IMG/VR virus record: IMGVR_UViG_3300025369_000036
Location: 1 to 36,124 of that record
Source of the DNA: a virus
DNA: 36,124 nucleotides
Strand: one strand, 5' to 3'
Shown here: positions 23,450 through 35,463 of the stretch, one piece after another
How the letters are laid out: the number at the start of each line of letters is the position of its first letter
How positions within the stretch are numbered: the first letter of the stretch is position 1
Notes under the pieces: model-generated
Seen by the model: the letters and a program-made list of their open reading frames with translations, nothing else
The model's database searches: none
Told to the model about the DNA's origin: nothing
Program-made: the position numbers and the translations under genes

Positions 23450-24313
23450 ATGTCTTATCTAGGTTCAAGTACCACTCTTTCAGACCCAACCAGATATACA
23501 CCTAGAACCGAACAGGTTCTTCAAGGTAATGGTTCAACGACCACATTTACTTTACAGTATTCAGTATCACAATCAACAGATATTCTGGTTACAGTTGAGA
23601 ACGTTGTTCAACAACCAGACTATGCCTATACAGCAGTTGGTAATGCTCTTGTATTTACTGGTGCTCCACCAGCAAATGCTTCTAATCCAAATAACATTGT
23701 TGTTGTATATAATAGAACAGCAGGTTTGACTGGTACTGTACCTGATGGTTCAATTACTTCAGGTAAATTGGCAACTAACATTAGATTGTTAGCAACAGAC
23801 CAGTTTACAGGTAACGGTGTTGTATCAACATTTGCTTTGTCTGATTATCCAGCAGATGCAAACTCATTGGTAGTTACAATTAACGGTGTCGGTCAAGCTG
23901 CACCAGCAAACTACACGATTGCTAATAACATCATTACATTCACTTCACCACCATTGAATGGTGCTAACGTAGTGATTCGTAACTTAGGTTTCAGAACAAC
24001 ACAAACTCTATTTGCTCTAAGTGCTGGTACACCAATCGTACAACCACAGATTACTGGTGGTAACCATTTATTAGCAAGTAACTTATCTACAACAGGTAAC
24101 GTATCTGTATATGATAATACTGGTACACAATTGAAAGCACAGATTGGTCCTAACTATGTGTTGACATCTAATCCATTCTTTCTAAATAGCAATACAGTAT
24201 CAGCGAACGTAACAATACCAGCAGGTTACAATGCTTTCGCTGTAGGTCCTCTAACACAAGCCGCCAACGTACAGATTACGGTTTCTGGTGGTTCTAGATA
24301 TGTTATATTCTAA
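23450..24313 (+). CDS. Tail adhesin with two tandem N-terminal modules and GPI-type tip
   Basis: This 287-residue protein starts MSYLGSSTT. Residues 22-88 and 115-180 are two copies of one module with the pattern GNGSTTTFTL, a V-x-V-x-V-V-Q strand, then Y-x-x-x-x-x-x-x-h-x-FTxAPP and a closing h-V-h-Y strand. After a short shaft (TPIVQPQITGGNHLLASNL) comes a C-terminal tip, AGYNAFAVGPLTQAANVQITV, ending GGSRYVIF. This tip form (NAxSxGPIxIxxGxxVxVxxGSxWxI) is frequent in phage fibres and recurs here at 31227 and 35692. No partner gene follows; the next gene is another fibre. Confidence 0.65.
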   Translation: MSYLGSSTTLSDPTRYTPRTEQVLQGNGSTTTFTLQYSVSQSTDILVTVENVVQQPDYAYTAVGNALVFTGAPPANASNPNNIVVVYNRTAGLTGTVPDGSITSGKLATNIRLLATDQFTGNGVVSTFALSDYPADANSLVVTINGVGQAAPANYTIANNIITFTSPPLNGANVVIRNLGFRTTQTLFALSAGTPIVQPQITGGNHLLASNLSTTGNVSVYDNTGTQLKAQIGPNYVLTSNPFFLNSNTVSANVTIPAGYNAFAVGPLTQAANVQITVSGGSRYVIF

Positions 24314-28970: not shown

Positions 28971-30260
28971 ATGAGTTTAACACAAGTACAAACTGGTATG
29001 ATTTCTGGAGTACCTATTCAGGTCTCTACGAATGGTGCTATCACAACCGTAAGTTCTAATAATGCTTCAGCCATTACACTTGATGGTGCACAGAACGCTA
29101 CGTTTACTAATGCGGTTAAGACAAGTACAATTACTACAACTGCTGGAAATAATGGTGCTTTGGCAGTAAATGCCAGCACAACATTTAATAATAATATTTC
29201 AGCACCAAACACATTCGGTTTTAAGAACCGTATTATTAATGGTAATATGGCAATCGACCAAAGAAATAGTGGATCACTTATAAATCCGGCAGTTAATGGT
29301 TCTTATTGTGTAGATAGATGGACAACAAGAACCAGCCAAACCACATATTATAAAATACAACAAAATGCAGGTTCGGTAACACCACCTCCAGGGTTTTCAA
29401 ATTATCTAGGAGTTACATCATTAAATTCATCATCTTTAGGATCTACTGATTATGCTTTTATTGCTCAATACATTGAAGGTTTAAATTGTCAAGATTTAAA
29501 TTGGGGAACTTCAAACGCTAAAACCATAACACTTTCTTTTTGGGTGCAATCATCTTTAACAGGAACTTTTGGTGGTGCAATTAGAAATTACCAAAATAGT
29601 TCTAATGGTTGTTATGTGTTTTCTTATAACATTCCAGTCTCAAATACTTGGACTTATGTTTCAGTTACTATTCCAGGACCAACGACAGGAGGTTCTTCTC
29701 AATGGCCAACAACCAACTCTGGATTTTTAGAGCTTGATTTTACTTTTGGTGTTGGAGCTACATATTCTGGTTCACCAGGTTCTTGGTTATTAAGCAATAA
29801 TATTGCTCCTACCGGAGCAGTATCCGTAGTCGGTACATCAGGCGCAACCTTCTACATTACAGGTGTTCAACTAGAAGTAGGAACTCAAGCAACATCTTTT
29901 GATTATCGTCCTTATGGTACTGAGTTGGCTTTGTGTCAGAGGTATTTTACTCAGTTAACAGCAGGTAGTGGAGCTTATACTGGTTTTGGAGCTGGTGTTT
30001 GGGGTGGAACTTCACAAGGAAATATATATTTAAAATATCCAACATCTATGAGAACCTCTCCTACATTTAATTATAGTAATGTATGCGTTAGCGATGGTGT
30101 TAATAATTTAAGCGTTACTTCTGTTACCAATTTCTTTGGTGGATCAGATAGTGGTCTGGTTACATTAGCTGTTAGTGGAAGTACAACGCAATATCGAGGC
30201 GCTTATTTATCTGCAAATAATAACACTTCTGCATATATTAATTTTTCAGCGGAGCTGTAA
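28971..30260 (+). CDS. Tail fibre adhesin with CQRYF-type C-terminal domain
   Basis: This 429-residue protein has a longer front (about 80 residues, with QVQTGMISGVPIQVSTNG and a short Asn/Thr shaft), then NTFGFKNRIINGNMAIDQRN (near 79-98). The shared domain continues with VDRWTTR, PPGFSNYLGVTSLN, LSFWVQSSLTGTFGG, NTWTYVSVTIPGP, GATFYITGVQLEVG and YGTELALCQRYFTQL. It ends YINFSAEL; GGAG at 30251-30254 lies five bases before the overlapping partner ATG (TAATG). The inner part is nearly the same as in the 24323 gene (a run of SLTGxFGG, FYITGVQLE, FDYRPYGTE), so recombination between them is possible. Confidence 0.75.
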   Translation: MSLTQVQTGMISGVPIQVSTNGAITTVSSNNASAITLDGAQNATFTNAVKTSTITTTAGNNGALAVNASTTFNNNISAPNTFGFKNRIINGNMAIDQRNSGSLINPAVNGSYCVDRWTTRTSQTTYYKIQQNAGSVTPPPGFSNYLGVTSLNSSSLGSTDYAFIAQYIEGLNCQDLNWGTSNAKTITLSFWVQSSLTGTFGGAIRNYQNSSNGCYVFSYNIPVSNTWTYVSVTIPGPTTGGSSQWPTTNSGFLELDFTFGVGATYSGSPGSWLLSNNIAPTGAVSVVGTSGATFYITGVQLEVGTQATSFDYRPYGTELALCQRYFTQLTAGSGAYTGFGAGVWGGTSQGNIYLKYPTSMRTSPTFNYSNVCVSDGVNNLSVTSVTNFFGGSDSGLVTLAVSGSTTQYRGAYLSANNNTSAYINFSAEL

Positions 30261-30466
30261 TGTATAAATTACCAATAATATTTCAAGAACAAACAAAACC
30301 AACTTGCGTAATAAGATCCGATGGGGCGGCTATTCCATTTGATCCAGACAACACAGACTACCAACAATTCAAAAAAGACATCCAAAACGGAGTAGTCTTA
30401 AACGATGCTGAAGGTAATCCTATTACCGGAACGGCTCTAACGACCTTCTTAAACACATTGCCATAA
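30260..30466 (+). CDS. Small fibre-partner protein (long type)
   Basis: The 68-residue product begins MYKLPIIFQEQTKPTCVIRS and has the core DGAAIPFDPDNTDYQQFKKD (about 21-40), then a NGVVLNDAEGNPITG segment and the end FLNTLP. It is closely related to the partner at 25395 over its last 40 residues, and their fibres (28971 and 24323) are also each other's close relatives, so fibre and partner appear to travel together. The start overlaps the fibre stop. A tail-fibre assembly chaperone role is inferred. Confidence 0.75.
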   Translation: MYKLPIIFQEQTKPTCVIRSDGAAIPFDPDNTDYQQFKKDIQNGVVLNDAEGNPITGTALTTFLNTLP

Positions 30467-30469
30467 ATA
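30462..30469 (+). promoter_or_regulatory. Late promoter-like motif CATAAATA
   Basis: CATAAATA overlaps the stop of the partner gene and lies 23 bases before the ATG of the homing endonuclease at 30493. It is one base from TATAAATA. It was probably the promoter of the fibre gene that the endonuclease gene now separates from it. Confidence 0.45.
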
Positions 30470-30484
30470 GAATATAACATAAAG
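30470..30484 (+). repeat. 15-base leader repeat, copy 1
   Basis: GAATATAACATAAAG here is identical to 32378-32392, where it lies in the leader of the fibre gene at 32400. Both copies stand directly behind a late promoter-like motif and before an ATG. Confidence 0.8.
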
Positions 30485-30492
30485 AATAACAC

Positions 30493-31224
30493 ATGACTTC
30501 CGTGGCTCATTTATATCGTATAGAGAACCTGAAAACAGGTGAATACTATATTGGTAAACACAATGGAATTACACAGAAGAAAACTCAAAGCAATAAATTG
30601 TATTGGGGTTCTGGTGATAGAATAAAAAGACAAATTAGGAAGTATGGTGTAGAGAATTTTAAATATGAAGTTTTGGTAATTGCTGAAGAAGATTACATAT
30701 ATGACCTAGAGAAAAGGTATGTAACTGTGGATCTTATTGAGAGTGATGAGAAATGTTTGAATTTGGTGGGTGGTGGATTTGGTCCTAGTGGATTAACAGA
30801 ACAAACCAGAAATAAACTCAGGTTATCTACCCTTAACGAACGTAAAAAAAATCCAGAAAAATGGAAAGAAGCTGCAAAAAAAGCAGGCCTCAATAAAAGA
30901 GGAATAATATTTTCCGAAGAACACAGAAAAAAAATCAGCGATGCTGGTAAAGGTAAAGATCCTTGGAATAAAGGCAAAACAAATACTATATCAGAAGAAG
31001 GTTTAAAAGTTTTAAAAGAAAAATGTAAAAAACTTACTTCTAATATGGTTTGGGTGAATAATGGATTACAAAATAAAAGACCACAAAAAGAAGATGTTCA
31101 AAAATATCTAAATGATGGATGGGTTGAAGGTAGATTGCGTGATTATATTGATGATAAATATAAAGAACAATGTAGACAAAGAAGTTTTAAGCGTTGGCAA
31201 AAAACTAAGAATTCTGGAGAATAA
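30493..31224 (+). CDS. GIY-YIG homing endonuclease, Seg-like with NUMOD3 region
   Basis: This 243-residue protein has an N-terminal GIY-YIG nuclease domain: HLYRI at 6-10, EYYIGK at 17-22, YWGSGDRIKRQIRKYG at 37-52 (catalytic Arg within it) and the likely metal-binding Glu73 in DLEKRYV. Residues 98-165 hold NUMOD3-type DNA-binding repeats (GLTEQTRNKLRLS and FSEEHRKKISDAGKG, then PWNKGK). The C-terminus is Lys-rich. Free-standing enzymes of this type spread their own gene by cutting phage DNA that lacks it. The Lys/Glu-rich composition contrasts with the Thr/Asn/Gly-rich fibres around it. It lies between a late promoter and a fibre frame whose start codon it appears to have taken over. Confidence 0.9.
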   Translation: MTSVAHLYRIENLKTGEYYIGKHNGITQKKTQSNKLYWGSGDRIKRQIRKYGVENFKYEVLVIAEEDYIYDLEKRYVTVDLIESDEKCLNLVGGGFGPSGLTEQTRNKLRLSTLNERKKNPEKWKEAAKKAGLNKRGIIFSEEHRKKISDAGKGKDPWNKGKTNTISEEGLKVLKEKCKKLTSNMVWVNNGLQNKRPQKEDVQKYLNDGWVEGRLRDYIDDKYKEQCRQRSFKRWQKTKNSGE

Positions 31225-31226
31225 AA

Positions 31227-31649
31227 ATTTCTTATTTAGGATCAGTTCCCACATCCGGCACCTTTCGTAGTGATTACTTTTCGGGTAATGGCTCTGCTAC
31301 GACCTTTAATTTGTCATACGGAACAGGGAATGAAAGCTCTGTTCTTGCCATTATTTCTGGTGTAGTTCAGGCTGCCTATACATACTCTTTAAATAACGGA
31401 CAAATTGTATTCTCTGCACCTCCACCAGCAGGTACTAACAATATTGAAATCAGGTACCTTGGAGAAAAGGTTCTTGTAAACCCATATCTGTCTGCTGATT
31501 CATTTGGTATCATCAGAATTAATTCAAACATCATCACAACAAACACAGTAATCTCTTTAGGTTACAATGGTAGTTCTACTGGTCCTATTTCAATTGCCAA
31601 TGGTATTACTGTACAAGTATCTAATAACTCAGTCTGGAAGATAATATAA
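31227..31649 (+). CDS. Tail adhesin frame without ATG, probable ATT start, GPI-type tip
   Basis: From ATT at 31227 the frame is open for 140 codons and reads ISYLGSVPTSGTF, matching the start MSYLGSSTT of the gene at 23450. It has one GNGSATTFNL module, with VVQAAYTYSLNNGQIVFSAP, and a tip YNGSSTGPISIANGITVQV ending SVWKII. The stretch contains no ATG codon in frame. GGAG at 31216-31219, inside the end of the endonuclease gene, lies seven bases before ATT, the same spacing as in the fibre-partner pairs, so ATT initiation is plausible. An alternative is TTG at 31311, which would drop the conserved start. It could also be a silenced gene. Confidence 0.6.
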   Translation: MSYLGSVPTSGTFRSDYFSGNGSATTFNLSYGTGNESSVLAIISGVVQAAYTYSLNNGQIVFSAPPPAGTNNIEIRYLGEKVLVNPYLSADSFGIIRINSNIITTNTVISLGYNGSSTGPISIANGITVQVSNNSVWKII

Positions 31650-35229: not shown

Positions 35230-35463
35230 ATGTATCAATTATACGGTAAACACGAAATAACAGGTCAAGATATTCAAGCAATTAAACGACTTGAAGATAA
35301 TGCTAGTGTTCCTTTTGACCATAACAACGTTGATTTTCAATTGTTTATTAAGTGGTTAAAAGAAGGTAATACACCAGAACCTGCAGCCAATACAACATTA
35401 GATTCTAATTGGGTTTCTAATATGCTTTCTGGTTATGGTTCAATAAATATAAAAAGACTATAA
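35230..35463 (+). CDS. Small fibre-partner protein (extended short type)
   Basis: The 77-residue product begins MYQLYGKHEITGQDIQAIKR and carries the core NASVPFDHNNVDFQLFIKWL (about 24-43), then KEGNTPEPAANTTL, matching the short type, plus an extra tail DSNWVSNMLSGYGSINIKRL not seen in the other partners. It follows the fibre after two bases with a well-placed GGAG site. A chaperone-like role for the large fibre upstream is inferred from the constant pairing. Confidence 0.72.
   Translation: MYQLYGKHEITGQDIQAIKRLEDNASVPFDHNNVDFQLFIKWLKEGNTPEPAANTTLDSNWVSNMLSGYGSINIKRL
35442..35449 (+). promoter_or_regulatory. Possible late promoter AATAAATA inside the partner gene end
   Basis: AATAAATA lies in the last codons of the partner gene, 31 bases before the ATG of the small membrane protein at 35481. 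It may be coincidental because the DNA is AT-rich and coding here. Confidence 0.25.

Follow-up and report, generated by a model that had tools for sequence, protein, structure and literature searches.

How a virion gene can be expressed when its reading frame lacks a methionine codon, and how such a frame came to lie directly behind a homing endonuclease gene (HEG), are the questions raised by a short fibre gene in the viral DNA analysed here. The window, meaning the whole stretch of 36,124 nucleotides, is part of a T4-like phage with a fibre gene array, and its baseplate wedge protein has its best match in Pelagibacter phage HTVC008M (38%). The features on which the analysis rests are the following.

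30462-30469, plus strand: late-promoter-like CATAAATA of the T4 type, which overlaps the stop codon of the gene before it (sequence)
30470-30492, plus strand: leader, which precedes the fibre ATG in insert-free relatives (blastn against L207)
30493-30495, plus strand: ATG starting the HEG, the presumed original fibre start codon (breakpoints in six pairs)
30493-31224, plus strand: GIY-YIG/NUMOD3 HEG, 243 aa (phrog_314, NUMOD3, conserved motif)
31206-31208, plus strand: TAA in the fibre frame (sequence)
31216-31219, plus strand: GGAG, putative Shine-Dalgarno (SD) within the HEG end, 7 nt before ATT (sequence)
31227-31229, plus strand: ATT, proposed fibre start codon (sequence, relatives, tree, pN/pS)
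31227-31649, plus strand: short tail-fibre gene, 140 codons, with an N-terminal T7-fibre-like anchor domain by weak fold match (phrog_5342, model, Foldseek)
31311-31313, plus strand: TTG codon 29, the first standard start inside the frame, without SD (sequence)
23450-24313, plus strand: paralogous fibre, ATG behind AAGGT (sequence)

The fibre frame opens with ATT TCT TAT TTA GGA (ISYLG) and reads ISYLGSVPTSGTFRSDYFSG..., whereas the paralogue at 23450 reads ATGTCTTATCTAGG from an ordinary ATG. A first-pass annotation of this DNA had reported this replacement, the ISYLGS start and a GGAG supplied by the HEG end seven bases before ATT, and all of these, coordinates included, were correct. It had also stressed that the frame is free of methionine, which holds for all 140 codons; however, internal methionines are equally absent from relatives such as L003, so that the lack of a start ATG alone carries information. 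An assembly error was ruled out, since contigs of two other metagenomes (L001 and L002) carry the identical junction. The HEG stop is separated from the ATT by 2 nt, and the in-frame TAA at -21 relative to ATT closes the fibre frame on its 5′ side, so no upstream ATG, GTG, TTG or CTG could start it.

The HEG product matched the phrog_314 homing endonuclease family (E=2.6e-27) and the NUMOD3 DNA-binding module (32.8 bits, cut-off 20.4), and scored 22.5 bits against Pfam SegE_GIY-YIG, just under the cut-off of 25. Its alignment contains an invariant H-L-Y...Y-Y-I-G-K and E, and tblastn retrieved segE-like genes. The catalytic domain, the NUMOD, the occupied and empty sites described below and the lack of an intron or intein identify it, as far as sequence can, as a free-standing GIY-YIG homing endonuclease, and the proposal of such a gene directly before the fibre, with its ATG behind a late-promoter-like site and a leader, was thus confirmed. 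The HEG protein tree was too poorly resolved to trace donors. The fibre matched phrog_5342 tail fiber (E=4.3e-9), its structure model was confident over residues 10-80 (the anchor domain), and Foldseek returned weak matches to the N-termini of fibres and tailspikes, including T7 gp17 (best E 0.02). Separately, an 82-aa ORF at 35692-35940 matches PHROG tail families 34255 and 5342, which are also hit by the C-terminal portion of the fibre at 31227.

Several dozen related loci were collected from IMG/VR; a scan of genome contigs found no host-genome copies, and cultured phages yielded distant relatives only (Melnitz), the Melnitz fibre starting with ATG. If the element entered right after the fibre ATG, an empty site should read leader-ATG-SYLGS. 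Such a site was found, synonymous changes aside, in the nearest insert-free relative (L003/L207, 79% protein identity), where the junction is ...cataaataaaagaatatcataaagaataacat-ATG-AGC-TAT-CTT-GGC-AGT. The blastn match between the window and L207 (88% over 153 bp) ends at the L207 fibre start codon plus 1 nt. In six pairs that each combine a HEG-bearing and a HEG-free locus, upstream homology ends 0-2 nt from the fibre start codon: at its third base in L214/L213, L221/L213, L226/L219 and L226/L231, one base past it in window/L207, and two bases past the ATG of the HEG in L233/L234. Downstream, five of the six pairs match again from codon 2 or 3 onwards, and window/L207 from codon 7-8; these breakpoints are alignment ends and movable by a few bases. 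Moreover, the leader gaataaatagaacact stands 5′ of the fibre ATG in L013 and 5′ of the HEG ATG in L004 and L043, and in L046 and L047 the HEG starts on a TTG whose leader also precedes the fibre TTG of the HEG-free L029. The breakpoints, the shared leaders and these TTG cases indicate that the element enters directly behind a start codon and adopts whichever codon stands at that place, so that the earlier suggestion of a takeover of promoter, leader and start codon is well supported. Flanking divergence was raised near the insert in L214/L213, L228/L231 and L234/L233, but also in the HEG-free pair L217/L213, and is therefore weak evidence for co-conversion.

Joining the flanks of the insert would give leader-ATG-TCTTATTTAGG, and T4 relatives have introns and one case of bypassing. 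Splicing of the insert from the mRNA, or its bypassing by the ribosome, could therefore restore ATG-TCT-TAT. However, the HEG ORF takes up nearly the whole insert and leaves no room for an intron core, an Rfam search at E<=1 gave no match, and ATT or ATC starts persist without any HEG in L215, L233 and L016. We regard either process as extremely unlikely.

We then compared fibre start codons, counting each distinct junction once. L240 had seemed to be a HEG-linked ATG locus through a false motif hit; the HEG is absent there and it was counted as HEG-free. The nine HEG-linked fibres of the window's type start with ATT (six) or TTG (three) and never with ATG, all behind an SD; a tenth HEG-linked locus, L049, belongs to another fibre type and has GTG. 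Among HEG-free fibres, 16 start with ATG and 14 do not (TTG 7, ATT 3, GTG 2, ATC 2). An SD was present at 22/22 non-ATG loci versus 1/16 ATG loci (p about 1e-9, uncorrected for relatedness), with GGAG spaced 7 nt from the start in the window and AGGTGA 6 nt in relatives. On the fibre tree, the minimum number of changes was at least 7 for the HEG, at least 11 between ATG and non-ATG, and at least 9 for ATT and ATC together. In contrast to this SD-led group, 13 of the 16 HEG-free ATG fibres carry TAAATA 4-7 nt before the ATG, and should TAAATA act as a late promoter, as it does in T4, the mRNAs of these fibres would have almost no leader; the WATAAATA late-promoter motif did not exceed chance in the window. 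In E. coli, leaderless mRNAs rely heavily on an AUG start (PMC9031893). A need for AUG in near-leaderless fibre messages, and tolerance of rare codons in SD-led ones, would explain the observed split, which is however no law of this phage, because the paralogue at 23450 combines AAGGT with ATG.

Where did the ATT come from? The block AAGGTGAACTAAA-ATT is identical after the HEGs of L221, L214, L226/L228 and L123, although L123 has a different type of fibre, and it recurs in the HEG-free L232 and L143. The window's own tail, GGAGAATAAAA-ATT (GGAGAATAAAAATTTC), agrees with the common GGTGAACTAAA-ATT (GGTGAACTAAAATTTC) at 13 of the last 16 positions, compared by eye only. On the fibre tree, judged by topology and path, the HEG-free loci that are sisters or nearest neighbours start with ATG (for the window, L214, L221 and L210) or TTG (for L226 and L228), and never with ATT. 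Hence the 3′ end of the element appears to have brought both the ATT and the ribosome site in front of it, rather than the ATT being a decayed ATG; we read the ATT as the element's own start because the block is common to unlike fibre backgrounds and to apparent scars. In the HEG-free L232 and L209, micro-ORFs (MSIHLIKVN* and MSKHLIKVQS*) open with the former fibre start codon, ATG, and close with a stretch that resembles the C-terminal end of the HEG (HLIKV); shuffled leaders matched the HEG end equally well in 2/400 cases for L232 and 0/400 for L209. L222, the sister of L209, is empty with a plain ATG, and in L054, L189 and L210 the HEG is broken to 76 aa while its tail and a TTG are retained. 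We read these loci as stages of insertion, decay and scar formation. Between HEG tails and the TTG leaders of HEG-free L219, L224 and others the similarity was not significant; a scar origin is therefore not proven for every non-ATG start, and these leaders may have a different past.

Such loci bear on the possibility that the SD and rare start were already the fibre's own in some lineages, with HEGs merely inserted between promoter and start. HEG-free SD loci with TTG, ATT or ATC do exist (L219, L224, L215, L233), the HEG of L046 took a TTG also present in HEG-free L029, and the fibres of L233 (HEG-free, ATC) and L234 (HEG, TTG) are near-identical. Against this, the absence of ATT from the nearest HEG-free loci and the same SD-ATT block in unlike fibre backgrounds make a pre-existing rare start unlikely overall, although single lineages may have had one, and we favour delivery of the ATT by the element.

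The first-pass annotation had further suggested that the fibre is rescued by initiation at ATT, coupled to translation of the endonuclease. ATT is a weak start codon, but ATT and ATC recur in several lineages, each with an SD and an in-frame stop just upstream; in the common type, TGA-ACT-AAA-ATT, the in-frame TGA lies at -9 and no other start is possible. The reading frame is intact in every complete ATT/ATC relative translated. For codons 2-28 of the ATT/ATC genes, pN/pS was 0.34 versus 0.32 for the rest (0.43 and 0.36 in ATG genes); these codons thus remain under purifying selection. The fibre is therefore probably initiated at ATT 31227: rescue is the best reading of the SD, the recurrence, the upstream stops and the selection, short of proof. 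Coupling would be possible, with the HEG stop 2 nt from ATT and the SD lying in the HEG end, but it is not essential, because L233, L016 and L143 start with ATC or ATT and have neither a HEG nor an upstream ATG in the leader.

If the start had instead been lost on insertion, a shortened product might begin at TTG codon 29, or the gene might be dying. This TTG is a standard start in the window, L228, L233 and L016, but it has no SD and is missing from L226, L215, L232, L214 and L221. The constraint on codons 2-28 speaks against a shortened product, with a start at codon 29 the modelled N-terminal domain would lack strands 15-18 and 26-28, and the intact frames speak against a dying gene; both variants are quite improbable. 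Frameshifting at the HEG stop could also yield one fused protein, since in the window the fibre frame is already open from TAA 31206, inside the HEG, which gives the two frames an overlap of a few codons. But the offset from HEG to fibre frame is +2 in the window and +1 in L004 and L024-L026, the common type has its in-frame TGA 9 nt before ATT/ATC, and ATT loci exist without a HEG, leaving fusion hardly credible. Initiation at ATT remains the preferred reading.

We propose the following account, which as a whole we consider likely. A GIY-YIG HEG would insert directly after the start codon of a fibre gene, whose late promoter, leader and start codon would then drive HEG expression. Its 3′ end would contribute an SD inside the final HEG codons, the stop and, set in phase with codon 2 of the fibre, a rare start, this substitute being ATT in the window and TTG or GTG in relatives. 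The fibre would be made from ATT by SD-led initiation, perhaps aided by ribosomes finishing the HEG 2 nt upstream. Homing, we infer, would spread the unit among related fibre genes, and later deletion of the HEG could leave its last codons, with the SD and rare start, as a scar. Of this account, the insertion point, its repeated use, the exchange of the start codon, the conserved SD-ATT block, the scars of some lineages and the purifying selection are visible in the sequences themselves, while initiation at ATT, homing activity and coupling are inferred. That HEGs of this family regularly integrate by capturing a start codon, ATG or TTG, while a portable AUU/UUG/GUG ribosome site keeps the virion gene alive and micro-ORF scars remain after HEG loss, is a generalization towards which we lean only slightly. 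If true, invaded genes would shift from near-leaderless AUG to SD-led non-AUG translation.

The element resembles the free-standing Seg-type GIY-YIG HEGs of T4 (segA-G) in its GIY-YIG and NUMOD3 domains, its phrog_314 membership, its position between structural genes and its late-promoter-like site. Five free-standing endonuclease ORFs of T4 overlap the end of the upstream ORF (PMC2988022), whereas the ORF of the window's element begins with the start codon of the gene behind it, for which it provides a substitute. In phage Aeh1 the HEG MobE lies in nrdA, and the split gene is still functional as two protein pieces (references in PMC2988022 and PMC10448857). Here too a HEG would interrupt a gene read as still functional, without intron or intein, but the cut lies between the start codon and codon 2, so that the whole fibre protein would be kept and initiation alone replaced. 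Natural AUU-started genes include E. coli infC and pcnB and S. aureus cvfC1 (PMC13009471 and references in it), and PMC13009471 also reports extended SDs at AUU starts. The predicted start in the window shares with them AUU, an SD at proper spacing and the lack of a standard in-frame start upstream. Those are single cellular genes; here, AUU and AUC have arisen several times over in one family of virion genes, and these starts seem to move together with a mobile element. In the open-access literature searched, we came across neither a HEG described as borrowing the start codon of the gene behind it nor a paper linking a homing endonuclease, a phage and an ATT start codon. The account would mean that a selfish gene can occupy an expression unit without intron or intein, swapping the start codon and leaving the protein uninterrupted. 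It would also explain how the true N-termini of such virion proteins would escape gene callers, and the pairs with and without the HEG offer a natural repeated set for testing AUU and AUC initiation.

Other genes of the window (6105, 13252, 22544, 26245) also have an ATG 3-5 nt behind TAAATA, a spacing which suggests that messages almost without a leader may be widespread among these phages. In L183, L184, L185 and L187, related HEGs lie at the start of the next cassette gene, a MAG-type fibre, which starts with ATG after the HEG, or TTG in L187; HEG-free L217 has a micro-ORF, MKTKRVK*, at the MAG-type fibre start (about 3420), a possible scar. In L188 and L190, the fibres behind more distant HEGs are of the MAYIGRSP/MAYLGRSP kind, and their ATG overlaps the HEG stop (GCATAATGGCA); because these fibres keep ATG, a HEG in front does not always entail a rare start. 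Finally, small genes with a motif like DNTDYQQFKK or NTDYQKYLKW lie between fibre genes in the window (30260-30466 and 35230-35463) and in relatives, often directly 3′ of a fibre, and may encode fibre chaperones.
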